Positions 36,457 to 62,146 of a stretch of DNA of 64,000 nucleotides are shown here, one piece after another. Under the pieces are notes generated by a model that had not been told where the DNA came from, made no database searches, and was given only the letters and a program-made list of their open reading frames with translations. The stretch lies in contig NZ_FOLE01000001.1 in NCBI RefSeq assembly GCF_900112255.1, positions 558,001 through 622,000 on the forward strand. The letters are read 5' to 3'. Within the stretch, counting starts at the first letter, position 1, and every line of letters begins with the position of its first letter. The DNA is from Flexibacter flexilis DSM 6793 (GTDB lineage: Bacteria > Bacteroidota > Bacteroidia > Cytophagales > Flexibacteraceae). A program made the position numbers and the translations under genes.

Positions 36457-39400
36457 TTAAACGTTTGAGTTGGAAATAGTGGGTTGTGTTGTTTTTTTGC
36501 GGGCAAGCGAAGCGAAAACCACATACAAACCCGGTATCACGATTACGCCAAAAACCGTCCCGAAGAGCATTCCGCCCAGTGCCGCCGAGCCTATGGTTCG
36601 GTTGCCGACAGCACCCGCCCCCGTAGCCACCACCAACGGCAACAAACCAGCCATAAAAGCAAAAGAAGTCATCAGGATTGGGCGCAAACGCAACGTAGCC
36701 CCTTCGATGGCCGCTTGCAAAGGCGTGTGCCCCTCTTCTTGTTTTTGGGCGGCAAACTCCACTATCAGAATGGCATTTTTACCCAACAAACCGATAAGCA
36801 TGACCATCGCGATTTGGGCATAAATATTATTTTCCAGACCCAAAACACTCAGCAAAAAGAAAGCCCCAAAAATGCCCGTAGGCAGCGACAGAATCACGGA
36901 CAAAGGCAGCAAAAAACTTTCGTATTGTGCCGCCAAAAGCAAATACACAAAGGCCAGACAGATAATGAAAATAAACACGCCTTCGTTGCCTGCACCCGCT
37001 TCGTCTCTGGAAATACCCGCCCAGTCGATGTCATAGCCGCGCGGCAGTTTTTCTCTGGCTGTTTCTTGCACGGCTTTGAGCACGTCGCCACTACTTACGC
37101 CTTGTTTGCCTTCGCCGTTTAGCTCCGCCGACGGGAACATATTGTAACGCGTGATTTGGTCGGGGCCATAGGTTTTCTCCAACGTTACAAAAGCCGAAAG
37201 CGGCACCATTTCTTCGCGGTCATTCTTGACGTACAGTTTGAGCAAATCTTCAGGTTTGGCGCGATATTCGGGCAAAGCCTGCACCATTACTTTATACATT
37301 TGCCCGAAACGAATAAAATTGGTGGCGTATTCGCTGCCCAGCATCGTTTGGAGCGAACCCATTGCATTACTGACGGTTACGCCTTTTTGCGCGGCTTTAT
37401 CCAAATCCAAAAGCAAGGTATATTGCGGGAAACTCACATCGAAAATGGTAAAAGCACTCGCAATTTCGGGGCGTGCTTTGAGGTCTTGGATAAATTGTTT
37501 TACGACTTCTTCCATTTTTTTCAAATCACCATCACCCGTTTTGTTGAGCAATCGCAACTCAAAACCACTGGCATTTCCGTAACCCGGCACGGCGGGCGGC
37601 GGGAAAAACTCAATCGCCGCATCTTTGATATGAGCCGTTTTTTCTGTCAGCGTTTCCATTACATCATCTACCGATACGTTGCGTTCATGCCATGTTTTGA
37701 GGTTAATCAAAGCGGTGCCATAGGTCGCGCCCGTTCCATCAGAAAGAATATTTGTACCCGAAAGTGTGGACACACTCGCCACGCCTTCGGTTTGTTGGGC
37801 AACGCGCTGAATTTCGTTTACCACTTCTTTGGTTCGCTCCAGCGTAGCCCCCGAAGGCGTAGTAATACTGGCGTAAAAAGTGCCTTGGTCTTCGTTGGGA
37901 ATAAAACCAGACGGCAAGGTTTTGCCCAAAATGCCAGTACCCAAACAGAACAGCAACAAAATCCCGAAAGTAATCGTCCTGCGGTGCAAAATCAGTTCCA
38001 AAACCTTGCGGTATCGGCCTTCGATGCGTTCATAACCACGATTAAAACCCGCCAACAAGCGTGTAAAAACATTGTGTTTGCGGTTGGCATCGTGTGCGTG
38101 TTTGCGGAGAATAAGGGTAGAAAGTGCAGGTGTAAGCGTAAGTGCCACCACGCCCGAAAGCACAATCGAAATGGCCATCGTAAGCGAAAATTGTCGGTAA
38201 AAAATACCTGAAGGGCCGCTCATAAAAGCCACTGGCACGAACACGGCAGACATCACCAACGTAATGGCCATAATCGCGCCGCTAATTTCTTTCATGGCTT
38301 GTTCTGTGGCTTCCGTTACGGTCATGTCGGGCGACTGCTCCAGTTTGGCGTGAATGGCTTCCACCACCACAATCGAGTCATCAATTACAACGCCAATGGC
38401 CAAAACCATCGCAAACAGCGTAATCATATTCAGCGAAAAGCCTAACAGACTGATAAAGAACATTGTCCCAATCAGAGCCACAGGAACCGTAAATGTCGGG
38501 ATAAGCGTGGAACGCCAATCTTGCAAGAAAATAAACACCACGAAAGCCACCAGAATAAAGGCTTCTATCAGCGTTTTGATTACCTCGTGTACGGACGCGT
38601 CCAGAAACTGGCTAATGTCGTAGTTGAGCGAATAATCCATTCCCTTCAAAAAAGATTTTTGTTTAAGTTCTGCCAATCGGGTTTTTACGTTGGCAATTAC
38701 CTCGCTGGCATTAGACCCCGGCAACTGCTTGAGCATAATGGCGGCGCAGGGTTTGCCGTTGAGTTTGCTTTCCACATCAAAATAAATCGTTCCGAACTCT
38801 ACATCAGCCACATCTCGAATCCTAAGGATTTTGCCCGAAGCCTCCGCCCGCAACGGAATGTTTCCGTATTGTTCGGGAGTCGTAAACTTGCCTGTATAAC
38901 GGACGGTGTATTGTAACGACTGGCTTTTCTTGTCGCTACTTTCACCAATTTTACCGGGGGCGGCTTCTACGTTTTCTTCTTGTAAAGCGTTGGTTACATC
39001 TTCCGTAGAAATGTTGTAAGCCAGCATTTTATCAGGTTTTAACCAAACACGCATCGCGTATTCTTTTACCCCCAACATACTACAATAGCCTACGCCTTTG
39101 ATGCGGCGCAACTCAGGAATAATATTGATGTCGGCGAAATTGAATACAAATTTTTCGTCCATCGTCGTATCCGTGCTAAAAATATTCAGATACATGAGCA
39201 TGGCGTTTTCTTCTTTGGCAATTTTTACCCCGCTTTTAATTACTTCTTCGGGCAGCTCGCCCATCACGGCATTGACGCGGTTTTGGACATTTACGCCCGC
39301 CACGTCGGGGTCTGTGCCTATGTCAAACAATATTTGCACCACACCAACGCCATCGTTGCCCGCATCGCTACTCATGTATTTCATGCCAGGCACGCCATTA

Positions 39401-39606
39401 ATGGCGCGTTCGAGTGGCACAATGGCGGCTTTGGTTACGGTTTCGGCGTTAGCTCCCGTATATTCTACGGTTACGTTTACTTCGGGCGGCGCAATGCTCG
39501 GAAAGAGCGTCATGGGAAGTTTGAACAAGGCAATTCCTCCCAGCATACAAATAATAATGGAAATAACGATGGCCAGCACAGGGCGATGTATAAATTTTTC
39601 TATCAT
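36457..39606 (-). CDS. RND efflux pump, inner-membrane permease, second copy (HAE1)
   Basis: 1049-residue AcrB-type proton-driven exporter. Starts MIEKFIHRPVLAIVIS. Relay acidic pair in GVVIDDSIVVVEAIH (about 405) and relay Lys in LIGLLGKNAILIVEF (about 935). It lacks the His-rich tail of the first pump and ends in a short Thr/Ser tail. The start is 15 bases after a stop that closes a small adaptor remnant (39622-39684); the adaptor gene itself is absent because the prophage begins there. The pump may therefore have lost both its promoter and its partner, unless it is expressed from the prophage or borrows the adaptor of the first operon. Confidence 0.95.
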   Translation of the reverse strand: MIEKFIHRPVLAIVISIIICMLGGIALFKLPMTLFPSIAPPEVNVTVEYTGANAETVTKAAIVPLERAINGVPGMKYMSSDAGNDGVGVVQILFDIGTDPDVAGVNVQNRVNAVMGELPEEVIKSGVKIAKEENAMLMYLNIFSTDTTMDEKFVFNFADINIIPELRRIKGVGYCSMLGVKEYAMRVWLKPDKMLAYNISTEDVTNALQEENVEAAPGKIGESSDKKSQSLQYTVRYTGKFTTPEQYGNIPLRAEASGKILRIRDVADVEFGTIYFDVESKLNGKPCAAIMLKQLPGSNASEVIANVKTRLAELKQKSFLKGMDYSLNYDISQFLDASVHEVIKTLIEAFILVAFVVFIFLQDWRSTLIPTFTVPVALIGTMFFISLLGFSLNMITLFAMVLAIGVVIDDSIVVVEAIHAKLEQSPDMTVTEATEQAMKEISGAIMAITLVMSAVFVPVAFMSGPSGIFYRQFSLTMAISIVLSGVVALTLTPALSTLILRKHAHDANRKHNVFTRLLAGFNRGYERIEGRYRKVLELILHRRTITFGILLLFCLGTGILGKTLPSGFIPNEDQGTFYASITTPSGATLERTKEVVNEIQRVAQQTEGVASVSTLSGTNILSDGTGATYGTALINLKTWHERNVSVDDVMETLTEKTAHIKDAAIEFFPPPAVPGYGNASGFELRLLNKTGDGDLKKMEEVVKQFIQDLKARPEIASAFTIFDVSFPQYTLLLDLDKAAQKGVTVSNAMGSLQTMLGSEYATNFIRFGQMYKVMVQALPEYRAKPEDLLKLYVKNDREEMVPLSAFVTLEKTYGPDQITRYNMFPSAELNGEGKQGVSSGDVLKAVQETAREKLPRGYDIDWAGISRDEAGAGNEGVFIFIICLAFVYLLLAAQYESFLLPLSVILSLPTGIFGAFFLLSVLGLENNIYAQIAMVMLIGLLGKNAILIVEFAAQKQEEGHTPLQAAIEGATLRLRPILMTSFAFMAGLLPLVVATGAGAVGNRTIGSAALGGMLFGTVFGVIVIPGLYVVFASLARKKTTQPTISNSNV

Positions 39607-39621
39607 CTAATTATCAGTGGT

Positions 39622-39684
39622 TTATAGGTTAATAATTTGAGATAACAGCACCGCTTCAGGCACAATTTTTTCGCCTTCTAAAAT
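39622..39684 (-). pseudogene. 3' remnant of the second RND adaptor (MFP) gene
   Basis: Directly upstream of the pump, an in-frame stretch reads ILEGEKIVPEAVLLSQIINL and then a stop. ILEGEKIVPE aligns with the end of the intact adaptor of the first operon (VRDNDKIVFEYED; the EKIVPE and DKIVFE parts share four of six residues), and the distance to the pump ATG (15 bases) is like that of the intact operon (26). The frame is broken by a TAG at 39685-39687, next to the A+T-rich repeats that I take as the prophage end. The assignment rests on about 20 codons and is inference. Confidence 0.55.
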
Positions 39685-39729: not shown

Positions 39730-39757
39730 AAAGCGATACAATTACTCGTATCGCTTT
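39730..39757 (-). terminator. terminator of the left-end methyltransferase
   Basis: 10-bp stem AAAGCGATAC / GTATCGCTTT with an 8-base loop, 4 bases after the gene. The A run at 39725-39732 gives a U tract on the minus strand. Confidence 0.82.
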
Positions 39758-39761
39758 AAAA

Positions 39762-40629
39762 TCACAACGCTGATATTCGCCTAACGGCAGCATTGTAGTA
39801 CTCCTCATCAATCTCAGATCCAACAAATTGCGCACCAATCTCATCGGCGGCAACGGCCACGCCTGACGAGCCTGCGAATGGGTCAAATACAACAGAATTG
39901 CTACCAGCTCCTACAAGTGCTAATAATCTTACTAACAATCGTACAGGCTTCTGCGTTGGGTGTATGACTACCGAACCACGCTCGGCAGCTACTTCAATGA
40001 TACTCTGCTCCTTCATCCCCTCAACAATCGACTTAAGCGTTGTCACTTGCCTGTCTGGAGTAGCTATCGCAGCCCCAATCGTAAGGCTTTCTTTGCCGCG
40101 TTTTTGGCTGTAAACGACTGTATTTTTTTCTAAATACGCGATTACATTATCAAGCTTCTTCGTCTTGAGTAAGCCCTTCAGCGATTTCAAATCGCGCAAT
40201 ATACCCGCCTCATCATATCGTTTCATTTCAAGATAAGGCACTTTACACGCCTTAATCTTACCCTTACCCTTAGTACTTATACTAATCGTCTCATGTCGGC
40301 GACCCAGTGCCATAAGCGGCGAAGATATGCGCTTCTTGTCCCAGATAATCTCTTCCTTAAAGGCGAATCCAAGTTCCGCAAGTCTTGTATTCCATCGATA
40401 GAACGATGCGCCACGTCCAAAAATGACAACAAAACCATCAGGCTTTACTATGCGCTGAATCTCTGAAAAAAAAGTAGCCTCGTCGAATGGCCTATCAAGT
40501 TTATGCTTGAGATAAAGGTAAGGAGGGTCTGTAAGAACAACATCTACGCTGTTCTCTGGCATTGTCTTCATCACTGCTATACAATCTGCGTTGTATAGCT
40601 TGTGATTTTTGTAATCAAAAAAAAATCAT
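39762..40629 (-). CDS. DNA (adenine-type) methyltransferase, beta class; start out of frame by one base
   Basis: Phage DNA modification enzyme using S-adenosylmethionine. Order of motifs is that of the beta class: catalytic TDPPYLYLKHKL near the N-terminus, target-recognition part in the middle, and AdoMet motif I DPFAGSSGVAVAADEIG near the C-terminus, ending VGSEIDEEYYN. The frame opened at GTG 40574 lacks the first strand; in-frame upstream codons read HKLYNADCIA, matching the paralogue at 61016, but no start codon is in that frame. An ATG at 40629 (MIFF...) reaches it only if the A9 tract at 40617-40625 loses one base. As it stands the gene is off, truncated, or slips. About 280 residues if restored. 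Confidence 0.85.
40617..40625 (-). repeat. poly(A)9 homopolymer at the methyltransferase start (possible phase-variation tract)
   Basis: Nine A on the plus strand (nine T in the mRNA sense) directly after the ATG ATT of 40629. Eight T would put ATG in frame with DYKNHKLYNADC and the whole enzyme; nine T gives a TGA after four codons. This is the layout of a slipped-strand ON/OFF tract, but a sequencing or assembly error would look the same. Confidence 0.6.
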
Positions 40630-40664
40630 TAAAAAAATAAAAAAGTAAAAAAATATAAAAAAAT

Positions 40665-40694
40665 AGTATTTCACCGACTAATCGGTGAAATACT
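40665..40694 (-). terminator. terminator of the leftward tail operon, overlapping the last stop codon
   Basis: Perfect 13-bp stem AGTATTTCACCGA / TCGGTGAAATACT with a 4-base loop CTAA. The loop contains the TAG stop (40678-40680) of the last tail-fibre-like gene. A-rich DNA at 40631-40663 supplies the U tract on the minus strand. Confidence 0.87.
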
Positions 40695-41529
40695 CAATAC
40701 CATCAAAGACAACGCGATGCCCTACCGCCCAAGTGACTGGCGAGGTATTTGCCCATTGCACGTCGCCATTCGGCTTAATGATCAACGGTACATTTTCATC
40801 CGTTCTTCTATAATCAGAAATATATATGTTAGAAGGCAGTACAATGGTTCTGGATGGCAGAGCATTAGTTGGCAACGTTAATAGTTTGAAATTGCCGTTA
40901 TCAACAGTCTTGACGGCGACACCACACATAGCTATCTTATTGACCGCCACACGTCGCCAGCCTACTGGATTATCGTATTCGGGATCGTCTGACCAGTCGG
41001 TATTAAAGCCGCCACCAGGCATATCTCTGATTAAATTCCAAGCGGTCAATCCATTTAGCTGATCTATCTGCGCTTGCAACGCCGCCACTTGTGCTTGAGT
41101 AGCTTTATCCGCGTAATTTATCTTTGCCTGCAATTTTTGCCAAAAATCAACACGACTTATATTCGACAATGCAATCCCTGTGCCTGATGGCTGCACAGAA
41201 GCGGTGTAGCTTCGTGTTACAGCACGCTCAATGCCGCTTGGCATATAAGGTTTGACAACCTCAACGACAGCATTGGCAACAATTACTGATGGCATCTCGA
41301 CGGCTACAACAGCCTCTACAGGCATGATTCGGCCAGCCAGCCACACCAAGCCAGCAGATACGTCAAACATTCCTACAGTGGCTGACGCTGTAACATTACA
41401 GCCTGACAGTATGCAATCATCTACATCTCGCAGAACAGCCGTAGCAGCTATACGCGCCTGTTCGTCGATCTCAATGAAATCATCGCCCAAAAAGCCGCGT
41501 TTTTCAAATTCTTGTACTTGCTCTATCAT
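40678..41529 (-). CDS. putative tail fibre / receptor-binding protein
   Basis: 283 residues, last gene of the leftward tail operon. N-terminal part (about 1-120) is Val/Ala-rich with IAATAVLRDVDDCILSGCNV; a short coiled coil follows (TQAQVAALQAQIDQLNGLT, about 143-161), and the C-terminal part is beta-rich with Trp and Gly (DMPGGGFNTDWSDD). Similar segmented proteins end Mu-type tail operons and act as fibres. No exact family recognised; host binding is inference from position and architecture. Confidence 0.6.
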   Translation of the reverse strand: MIEQVQEFEKRGFLGDDFIEIDEQARIAATAVLRDVDDCILSGCNVTASATVGMFDVSAGLVWLAGRIMPVEAVVAVEMPSVIVANAVVEVVKPYMPSGIERAVTRSYTASVQPSGTGIALSNISRVDFWQKLQAKINYADKATQAQVAALQAQIDQLNGLTAWNLIRDMPGGGFNTDWSDDPEYDNPVGWRRVAVNKIAMCGVAVKTVDNGNFKLLTLPTNALPSRTIVLPSNIYISDYRRTDENVPLIIKPNGDVQWANTSPVTWAVGHRVVFDGIEYFTD

Positions 41530-58829: not shown

Positions 58830-61019
58830 ATGTGGGATATTTTTAAGAAAAAGCCAAAAGCAATAGGTGATAATGAGCTGATGCAATTGGCATTCGATAG
58901 ATTAGATACGACTTCATTGCAGATGTTGGCCGCCGCGAAAGGTCATAAATCTGCAAGTGAGGGGATTGTTCCATATTTCCACAGTGAGCGAGCAGCCTCA
59001 TTGTTGGAGTGGTCGCAAGGCATCGAATTTGCCAAAAACCCACACATGTACAATCGCAAGCAATTGTATCGGACGTATGATAATGCGTACCGCGACTTGC
59101 ATTTGACAGGCATTATTGGCACTCGAATCACGTCTTTGCAGAATTCAAAATTCAAAGTAACGCGCGAACTTCGGCAAGATACAGGCGCAGAGGATTTGTT
59201 CAAAAATATGTGGTTCAGGGGCTATATTCGGGATATGGCCATGAGCATATTTGATGGCTACACACTGGCCGAAATAACGGAATTTAATGACCAATTAACT
59301 ACCGTTTCAATTGGCAATAAAAATTTACAAATACGCGAAATTTCAGAGATTTCGCGCGTGAACAAATCGCACGTAAGACCAGAGCTTAACAAGTGGTTTG
59401 CCTATGATTATGACACCGCATCGGCAGGATTTGACTACACTGCCGCACCCGATAATCTCTATTATATAGGAATCGGCGAGCGCAAAGACTTAGGTCTGAT
59501 GGAGCGAATTACGCCTATTGCGCTGGCCAAACGATACGCTCAAGCGACTTGGGGAAGTTTCAATGACAAATTGGCCGTACCGTTCAGGACTGTCACTATG
59601 AATGGGCAAGATGTCAAGCGAGAGCGTAAATTGGCAGAGATTCTTGACAAGATGGGTGCAGCGGGCTGGGGTATTTTACACCCTGGTGAAGAGCTAAAAT
59701 TTATTGAGGTGAGCAAGAGCGATGTACATAAGTGCTTCGCGGAATTGATGGCATATTGCGACAGCCAAATGTCTATTTCTGTATTACACCAGACTGGCAC
59801 AACGAACGAAAAATCCTATGCAGGTTCGGCGGCGGTGCATCAATCTGTGGCCGAAGAAGTACACGCTGCCGACCGTGCGTTTTTGGAATACAACGTCAAT
59901 ACGCAGCTCATGCCGCGATTGCTGGCACACGGCTATCCATTGCATGGCTTCAAATTCGAGCGAGACGACAAGACACAGATTCCTTTACTTGACCAAATCA
60001 AGATTGATGATACGCTGATGCGGCACTACCATGTAAGCCCTGAGTATGTGGCCAATAAGTACGATGTACCGATTGAATTTATCACGGAAAAATCAAGCAC
60101 TGGCGGCGGCGAGGCGGTATTAAAACCAGTCAATAATATTACCGACGTAGTCGAGCAAGTGGCGGCCAAGAAAACGGGAAAAATGTATTACGCTATGCCA
60201 GCAATGTATTCGCAAAAGCCGATGTCCGCGATTATGCGCACGGAATACCCTGTAACAATGGCCAGCGATAACACGCCTGAATTTAAAGGACTTGGCGGCC
60301 TGATTCAAAAAATATTTGATGGCAAAGCGCAGAAGATTGACCCAGACTTATGGCAATATATCAATGACGCGCTTATCGAAGTAGCCAATGAGGGCGTGGG
60401 TGTTGATTTACTTTCAGTAGATTATACGAAGCCCGATAATCAATTACTACAATTCATGCGCGACAATATATTTCTGTTTTCGTCCGCCAAGACGTGGCAG
60501 CAGATGCGCGAGATGTCGCAGCTATTATACGACGAAAACGGGCAAGTGCGTAGTGAATCTGAGTTCAAGCGATTAGCGAAAGGTACACATAACATGTACG
60601 TGCAGTATCTGAGCGTTGAACGCAACACCGCACTCGCGTCTGGGCAAATGTTTCAGATGTGGCAGGATTTTGCCGCCAATACGGATGCCTATCCTAACCT
60701 ACGCTATGAGACCGCAGGCGACAAGCGTGTACGTCCTTCGCATCAAGAATTGGAAGGCATTGTGCTACCGTTCAACGATTCGTTTTGGGATACTTATTGG
60801 CCACAAAATGATTGGGGTTGTCGCTGCCGCGTAACGCAAACACGTGATAAGGCCACGGATAAGGCTACGATTGTACAGCCTACCATTAGCCCAATATTCG
60901 CCAATAACGTGGGCAAGTCGGGCATCATATTTAAAGAAGACGCGCACCCATACTTCGACGTAACGCGCTCACAAATGAATGACATCAAGGCATTTACAAA
61001 CGACAAACTCAAAATATGA
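58830..61019 (+). CDS. portal protein (DUF935) fused to MuF-like minor head protein
   Basis: 729 residues from the ATG at 58830 (MWDIFKKKPKA). N-terminal about 1-430 is a Mu gp29/DUF935 portal: YDNAYRDLHLTGIIGTRITS, FDGYTLAEITEFND, MERITPIALAKRYAQATWGS and ADRAFLEYNVNTQLMPRL. C-terminal about 500-729 is a gp30/SPP1 gp7-like domain with the MuF signature YETAGDKRVRPSHQEL and WGCRCRVTQTRD. In Mu these are separate genes. The frame is open upstream to 58779 but that part overlaps the previous gene. The methyltransferase starts in its last codons (ATGA overlap). Confidence 0.87.
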   Translation: MWDIFKKKPKAIGDNELMQLAFDRLDTTSLQMLAAAKGHKSASEGIVPYFHSERAASLLEWSQGIEFAKNPHMYNRKQLYRTYDNAYRDLHLTGIIGTRITSLQNSKFKVTRELRQDTGAEDLFKNMWFRGYIRDMAMSIFDGYTLAEITEFNDQLTTVSIGNKNLQIREISEISRVNKSHVRPELNKWFAYDYDTASAGFDYTAAPDNLYYIGIGERKDLGLMERITPIALAKRYAQATWGSFNDKLAVPFRTVTMNGQDVKRERKLAEILDKMGAAGWGILHPGEELKFIEVSKSDVHKCFAELMAYCDSQMSISVLHQTGTTNEKSYAGSAAVHQSVAEEVHAADRAFLEYNVNTQLMPRLLAHGYPLHGFKFERDDKTQIPLLDQIKIDDTLMRHYHVSPEYVANKYDVPIEFITEKSSTGGGEAVLKPVNNITDVVEQVAAKKTGKMYYAMPAMYSQKPMSAIMRTEYPVTMASDNTPEFKGLGGLIQKIFDGKAQKIDPDLWQYINDALIEVANEGVGVDLLSVDYTKPDNQLLQFMRDNIFLFSSAKTWQQMREMSQLLYDENGQVRSESEFKRLAKGTHNMYVQYLSVERNTALASGQMFQMWQDFAANTDAYPNLRYETAGDKRVRPSHQELEGIVLPFNDSFWDTYWPQNDWGCRCRVTQTRDKATDKATIVQPTISPIFANNVGKSGIIFKEDAHPYFDVTRSQMNDIKAFTNDKLKI

Positions 61020-62146
61020 TAACATTACTTAATACTGATTTCGCAAATCACATTAACAATATTCCTGACAAGTCAGTGGATATTGTATGTATAGACCCTC
61101 CGTATCTTTATTTAAAACATAAACTTGATATACCTTTTAACGAAAAGGCGTTGTTTGATGGCATCGCAAGGATTATTAAGCCTGAAGGATTTGTTATCTT
61201 ATTCGGGCGTGGTACTTCGTTTTATCGTTGGAATACAATGCTTGCCGAACTTGGGTTTAATTTCAAGGAGGAAATAATTTGGGATAAATCCCAATGTTCA
61301 AGCCCCTTGATGGCTATTAGTAGAGTACATGAAACCGTTTCGTTGTGGTCTATCATAGGTAAGATTCACAAAGTGAAAGTGCCTTATTTGGAGATGAAAA
61401 AACATGACATAGGTAGTATTGTGCAGGATATTAAGCGTATGCGTTCAATCTTTAAGGACACTAAGTCTATGCAGGCGGTGCTTGACTTCTTGGAAAACAA
61501 TACAGTAGCGTATCACGAAGCTACTTATAAGCATCGCCACGCAGATAATGGCGAGCATGGTACAATGGATAGATGTGTAGCGGTAGAGCGCTCTACGCAA
61601 GAGGGGTTAAACGAAAAATCTATAATCAGAAGCGACTTTTCGGGAGATTTCAAAAAAAACGTACCGACAACTCTTTGCGGCACAAAAGCTAAGGACGGAT
61701 TAAAGGTAGTTACTGTTGCTCAATCTATGGCATGTGGCTGTAACGAAAAATCCATTATACGAAGTGATTATGAATCACATGATAAATTTACAAAACACTA
61801 TGTAAATGCAGACAAAAGATGCTCTGGAAATAGATGTACAGACGTTGCTCAATCTATAACCTTTGGACTAAACGAGAAAAGTATTATCAAACAGGTTCGC
61901 GACCATTATTCAGCCATACATCCAACGCAAAAGCCTGTTAAACTACTAAAGCGAATCATGGCTTTGTGTTTCAATAAAAAAACAGAAAGTATATCAGTTG
62001 TGGACTTTTTCGCAGGTAGTGGCTCTACCTTAATAGCTACTCTTGAGTTGTCACAAGAATACCCTAATATTCAATTTAATGGCTTAGGGTGTGAGATTGA
62101 TAAAGGCTACTATGAAGATGCTAAGCAAAGAATAGATGGGATTTGA
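61016..62146 (+). CDS. DNA methyltransferase, beta class, with tripled recognition module
   Basis: 376 residues, paralogue of 39762-40629. Catalytic CIDPPYLYLKHKLD (about 28), FGRGTSFYRWNT, and AdoMet motif FFAGSGSTLIATLELS (about 335) followed by LGCEIDKGYYED. The target-recognition part (about 165-305) has three copies of a module spaced 43-44 residues (around V190, V234 and V277: VAQS-x4-G-x-NEKSII), while the other methyltransferase has a single related copy (TLKSIVEGMKEQSII). It interrupts the head operon between portal-MuF and gpG-like genes and overlaps both. Confidence 0.87.
   Translation: MITLLNTDFANHINNIPDKSVDIVCIDPPYLYLKHKLDIPFNEKALFDGIARIIKPEGFVILFGRGTSFYRWNTMLAELGFNFKEEIIWDKSQCSSPLMAISRVHETVSLWSIIGKIHKVKVPYLEMKKHDIGSIVQDIKRMRSIFKDTKSMQAVLDFLENNTVAYHEATYKHRHADNGEHGTMDRCVAVERSTQEGLNEKSIIRSDFSGDFKKNVPTTLCGTKAKDGLKVVTVAQSMACGCNEKSIIRSDYESHDKFTKHYVNADKRCSGNRCTDVAQSITFGLNEKSIIKQVRDHYSAIHPTQKPVKLLKRIMALCFNKKTESISVVDFFAGSGSTLIATLELSQEYPNIQFNGLGCEIDKGYYEDAKQRIDGI

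Follow-up and report, generated by a model that had tools for sequence, protein, structure and literature searches.

How does a DNA methyltransferase gene come to lie one base out of frame with the only ATG in front of it, and is such a gene a sequencing artefact, a switch, a shortened working gene or a real allele? The case lies on the minus strand of the window (the whole stretch of 64,000 nt analysed here, from Flexibacter flexilis), where a run of nine T separates the ATG from an otherwise intact frame. We favor, with a probability of roughly 0.55, a real out-of-frame allele of an accessory methyltransferase at the end of a Mu-like prophage, whose expression would be low, leaky and potentially reversible.

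The reading frame and its natural start

From position 40629 the minus strand of the assembly reads ATG (40629-40627), ATT (40626-40624), TTT, TTT and TGA (40617-40615), just as an earlier note on this DNA had it, where the ATG, ATT and nine T were said to end in a stop after four codons. This ATG is the sole one from the upstream hairpin to the conserved D-C motif of the enzyme, and the four-codon frame (40615-40629) likely holds the ancestral start, now out of frame. The T run has exactly nine residues in the assembly (40617-40625; A9 on the plus strand) and stands between the ATG and the conserved frame, which is one base off that of the ATG. The conserved frame (39762-40625, minus strand; 287 codons plus stop) begins after a TGA that immediately precedes the T run, reads FFFDYKNHKLYNADCIAVMKTMPENSVDVVLTDPPYLYLKHKL, and is open down to the stop at 39762. 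Every invariant residue of the family is kept in it, with no stop in 287 codons. No ATG, GTG or TTG occurs in this frame 5' of a GTG at 40572-40574, which is the first standard in-frame start.

The homologues used for comparison were viral contigs and phage records (35-53% identity in the main alignment), and their sequence was read 5' of the match. An in-frame start is present in 42 of 42, nearly always 7-18 codons before the D-C motif; the 42 include a few entries that repeat a contig, and one (L150) whose odd frame context means that it should be discounted. Many of them have M-I as their N-terminus, which matches the ATG-ATT at 40629. The separation of start and conserved frame by T9, unlike the arrangement in all 42 homologues, is thus the non-trivial part of the locus as judged by sequence comparison. 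Whether relatives start at the internal GTG had been proposed as a check, and none of the 42 has a start at its position.

The fold bears on the same point. An AlphaFold (AF2) model was built on the natural 287-residue frame, and has a mean pLDDT of 78, with residues 1-30 at 88-97. Residues 2-5 and 8-11 are strands in it and residues 15-21 a helix, within which the GTG at 40574 codes for Val18. Solved beta-class methyltransferases align from model residue 4-7 onward, M1.HpyAVI having its residue 1 opposite model residue 7. Translation from the GTG would, according to the model, drop a core strand and begin in mid-helix, in keeping with the earlier suggestion that it falls inside the fold. On one rival reading, translation begins at this GTG, or at an ATG at 40571, and gives a shortened working enzyme, the upstream homology being a relic; the 270-codon frame from the GTG does hold all of the catalytic motifs. 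Nevertheless, because the predicted fold and the solved relatives begin 5' of it, and the strand covered by their alignments would be lost, the GTG is an unlikely natural start; it is used by no homologue, and a 9-bp inverted repeat (GCTATACAA/TTGTATAGC; 40576-40599, minus strand) ends one base 5' of it and could mask it. We therefore regard the shortened enzyme as quite improbable, and the natural start as most likely lying upstream of the tract, out of frame. The inverted repeat was also considered as an operator, and this was dropped when a second copy proved absent elsewhere on the contig.

The enzyme and the prophage that carries it

The product of the conserved frame matches the PF01555 profile (E 2.7e-27; 96.6 bits vs a curated cut-off of 26.7) and phrog_67 (E 9.5e-46). 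The beta order of motifs is kept, with DPPY (alignment positions 33-36) preceding the SAM-binding DPFAGSSG (248-255; motif DPFxGS). The best PDB matches of the AF2 model are beta-class methyltransferases with Z scores of 20-23, and the nearest solved relatives are CcrM, M.BceJIV, MboIIA and M.RsrI. The gene is thus assigned to the beta-class N6/N4 DNA methyltransferases, with its activity predicted from sequence and model. A paralogue behind the portal gene (61016-62146, plus strand) has an intact start, MITLLN; the match to it that had been noticed earlier is genuine, at 48-49% identity over its length. One viral contig, IMGVR_UViG_2851072688_000002 (L141, L149), likewise holds two members of this methyltransferase family.

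The surrounding element encodes Mu-type proteins (Portal_Mu, E 1e-60; Phage_Mu_F or gpF, E 6e-13) and a Clp-type protease, and from these genes and a 5-bp target duplication at its ends we consider it a Mu-like transposable prophage. It extends from window position 39680 to position 634587 of the contig, approximately 36.9 kb. These limits are set by the host gene: joining the flanks restores the C-terminus of an HlyD-type membrane-fusion protein (...YEGIQRVKEGEKIVPEAVLLSQIINL), as in relatives, with a 5-bp target duplication, AGAAG (CTTCT on the plus strand at 39675-39679; repeated beyond the window at contig 634588-634592). Phage ends of the TG...CA type with another 5-bp duplication were a candidate, and were dropped in favor of AGAAG, which the restored host gene backs. 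Two copies of TTGGAMATTTGATTTTT lie at the right phage end (39688-39726, minus strand) and two similar copies at the left; these TTGGACATTTSATTTT-like repeats, two per phage end (39688-39726; contig C1:634485-634578), are probable transposase binding sites by their sequence and placement. A 677-aa protein in the place of MuA (contig C1:630253-632286, L067:12253-14286) has no Pfam match and adjoins an AAA ATPase. The prophage interrupts an RND efflux operon (window 36457-39606, contig C1:634571-635638): inserted close to the 3' terminus of the HlyD-type gene, it replaces the last residues of the HlyD-type protein and parts its gene from the pump gene.

Within this element the methyltransferase is the last gene at the right end, which is the place of mom in Mu. 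The parallel with mom drawn in the earlier note thus stands as far as position is concerned; its description of the gene as "left-end" is correct for the window and wrong for the phage, where that end is the right one. The gene upstream is a tail gene (40678-41529, minus strand; 283 aa), and its counterpart is the last gene of a related prophage (portal approximately 46% and terminase 47% identical), which ends after it and in which no methyltransferase match was found. Since this relative lacks the gene, the methyltransferase is best seen, on comparative grounds, as accessory (moron) cargo.

Origin of the nine-T run

The tail gene ends in an intrinsic terminator with a perfect 13-bp stem (40665-40694, minus strand; dG -18.4 kcal/mol, z -6.45), and the TAG stop of the tail gene sits in the loop. 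The T-rich tail of this terminator continues straight into the start of the methyltransferase gene, so that the T run lies within the tail. T accounts for 76% of the 50-nt stretch that follows the hairpin, and T9 was present in 71% of random shuffles, a generous figure, as the stretch includes T9 itself. With such a composition T9 is unsurprising in its setting, is expected from composition alone and needs no special explanation; the phage methyltransferase is an ordinary one, and what is unusual is its out-of-frame allele, with the T9 coming from a terminator tail. A second terminator (39730-39757, minus strand; 12-bp stem and T run) lies just 3' of the methyltransferase stop. Between the first terminator and the methyltransferase we recognized no convincing promoter of Bacteroidota or sigma-70 type, so the gene may hardly be transcribed, whatever its frame. 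A ribosome finishing at the TAG in the loop could impede the hairpin and let transcription into the methyltransferase.

If the assembly were wrong by one base, the true tract would have an in-frame length and the gene would be ordinary, an alternative that the earlier note had raised. One-base homopolymer errors are a common sequencing artefact, and the homologues are all in frame. The other homopolymers of the 913-kb contig argue against it. The contig has 628 A/T runs of length 7, 199 of length 8, 19 of length 9 and one of length 10; runs of at least nine are therefore rare (20, vs 199 of length eight), and nine such runs other than ours fall within long open frames. The drop at nine is a sharp one, with earlier length steps only about threefold each. 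A coding-potential scan for frame switches covered the 847 runs of at least seven on the contig. Its power, judged from simulated one-base changes, was 55% with 150-nt flanks and 62-76% with 240-nt flanks, and it made no false calls within intact genes. Depending on the setting it listed 6 to 20 switches. Those free of stops at A/T runs (199711, 362541, 371894 and 616221, and also a T6 at 800586) proved to be junctions of neighboring genes and were set aside, and each of the others is flanked by a stop on one side or both, as happens where genes end. At this power of 55-76% the scan yielded no clear homopolymer frameshift elsewhere on the contig. Homopolymer errors thus seem uncommon in this assembly, and because frames are intact at its other homopolymers, with no visible gene breaks, we consider a sequencing error rather unlikely.

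Phase variation was the other explanation in the earlier note; in its adaptive form, replication slippage in the T tract would toggle the methyltransferase on and off between cells, with the tract kept by selection. The classical contingency locus has a homopolymer where its gene begins, as does this DNA methyltransferase gene, intact in all other respects, and here too the length of the tract sets the frame; nine is, in addition, the length at which A/T runs turn rare in this genome. Such a tract should be common to orthologues, and a run of at least nine occurs near the gene start in none of the 42 homologues, with T8 in two, a comparison that the earlier note had called for. Moreover, T9 is expected in a leader so rich in T, and long homopolymer tracts of the contingency kind are missing from the 913-kb contig (the longest A/T run is 10 and the longest G/C run 7). 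Since no homologue has a comparable tract, the sequences give no evidence for a conserved contingency locus or a dedicated on/off switch, and the proposal of a phase-variable gene in the adaptive sense is unsupported and, in our judgment, doubtful. Our literature search on phase-variable phage methyltransferases found no direct precedent.

Close relatives of the tract were sought in the genus (represented only by this genome), in 11 genomes of the family, 390 of the order and 395 of the phylum, and none was found. A 23-base probe adjoining the tract had no match among the viral contigs, and queries with terminase and baseplate likewise brought up no relatives among viruses. No in-frame version beside the same leader appeared among the relatives, the best homologue being approximately 53% identical.

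Predicted expression and known systems

The reading that we favor, a real out-of-frame allele, would work as follows. The methyltransferase gene would have its beginning in the T-rich tail of the terminator that precedes it. This tail is slip-prone, and a difference of one base in its length would have put the ATG at 40629 out of register with the conserved frame. Complete enzyme could then have three sources: RNA polymerase may slip on U9 by minus one or plus two, the ribosome may now and then shift +1 at UUU-UGA, and replication may alter the tract length in some cells. Slippage by RNA polymerase and by the ribosome is absent from the earlier note, and either would let some enzyme through. 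The outcome would be low, leaky and potentially reversible expression of the methyltransferase. Position, frame, anatomy, fold and the lack of the tract in homologues come from the analysis itself; that the tail changed in length, and that expression leaks and can revert, we infer from the tract and its setting.

Slippage by RNA polymerase is well suited to a tract of this kind. The E. coli enzyme (E. coli being of another phylum) restores the frame by deletion in approximately 10% of cases on T8, with a preference for poly(T) (PMC6260861), and nine A/T allow efficient slippage in vivo (PMC5009743). Because T9 is long enough for such slippage, the allele is likely to be dimmed but not off, and full silence would be unlikely, provided that the gene is transcribed. 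For the ribosomal route, the UGA after UUU resembles the +1 shift site of RF2, but the next base is U and not the C that favors slippage of the RF2 type; a minority of RF2 genes, and of species, use UUU_U for the shift (PMC5009743). A stop of the UUU-UGA type in any case arises in any misframed T run before GA. Reversion through replication slippage is possible in principle.

One may go further and suppose that the recoding is maintained, T9 being kept so that enzyme comes only via transcription slippage, at a selected low level. In purpose this would resemble the way in which Mu tightly regulates mom. Bacterial RNA polymerase is prone to strong slippage on nine T, rescue of this kind has been studied in E. 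coli with a frameshifted methyltransferase gene, mboIIM2 (PMC6260861), and the terminator in front would be a second restriction. The tract, however, is not conserved and is expected from composition, and we consider maintained recoding the most improbable of the readings discussed here. Scarcely more credible is a double gate, in which the terminator with the upstream stop in its loop and the slippery T9 would together form a sequence-encoded dimmer in the place of mom, with enzyme arising only from slipped transcripts or from variants in tract length.

Whether the DNA of a phage escapes restriction in its next host can depend on a phage methyltransferase. If the tract of the out-of-frame allele truly varies or leaks, the modification would be carried by only part of the phage population. 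As it stands, the case is a good example of how the T-rich tail of a terminator can create an accidental slippery start.

Among known systems, the phase-variable methyltransferases of the Mod family and the homopolymer genes of Helicobacter and Campylobacter share with this gene a repeat tract in the 5' part and a frame out by one. In those methyltransferases the length of the tract varies between clones; the present case differs in that the tract is not common to homologues. Mu mom is similar in being a modification gene that closes the right end of a phage of this type, and it is not known to have homopolymer control of its frame. Mom itself is a member of the acyltransferase superfamily and not a methyltransferase, according to a reference cited in PMC7761591, whereas the gene at 40 kb is predicted to encode a methyltransferase. 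The transposable phages of the fF4 type in Bacteroidetes have a Mu-like gene content and, as a rule, a DNA modification gene (a methyltransferase, for example) among their last open reading frames; this likeness is one of gene content and placement, and no frameshift or homopolymer at the methyltransferase start is described in that paper's passages on these phages (PMC7761591). A further parallel, in mechanism, is mboIIM2, a DNA methyltransferase gene that is likewise frameshifted and has T runs, and in which slippage restores a fraction of full-length enzyme (PMC6260861); there the deletion was engineered and tested experimentally in E. coli, whereas here the comparison is drawn from the gene sequence.
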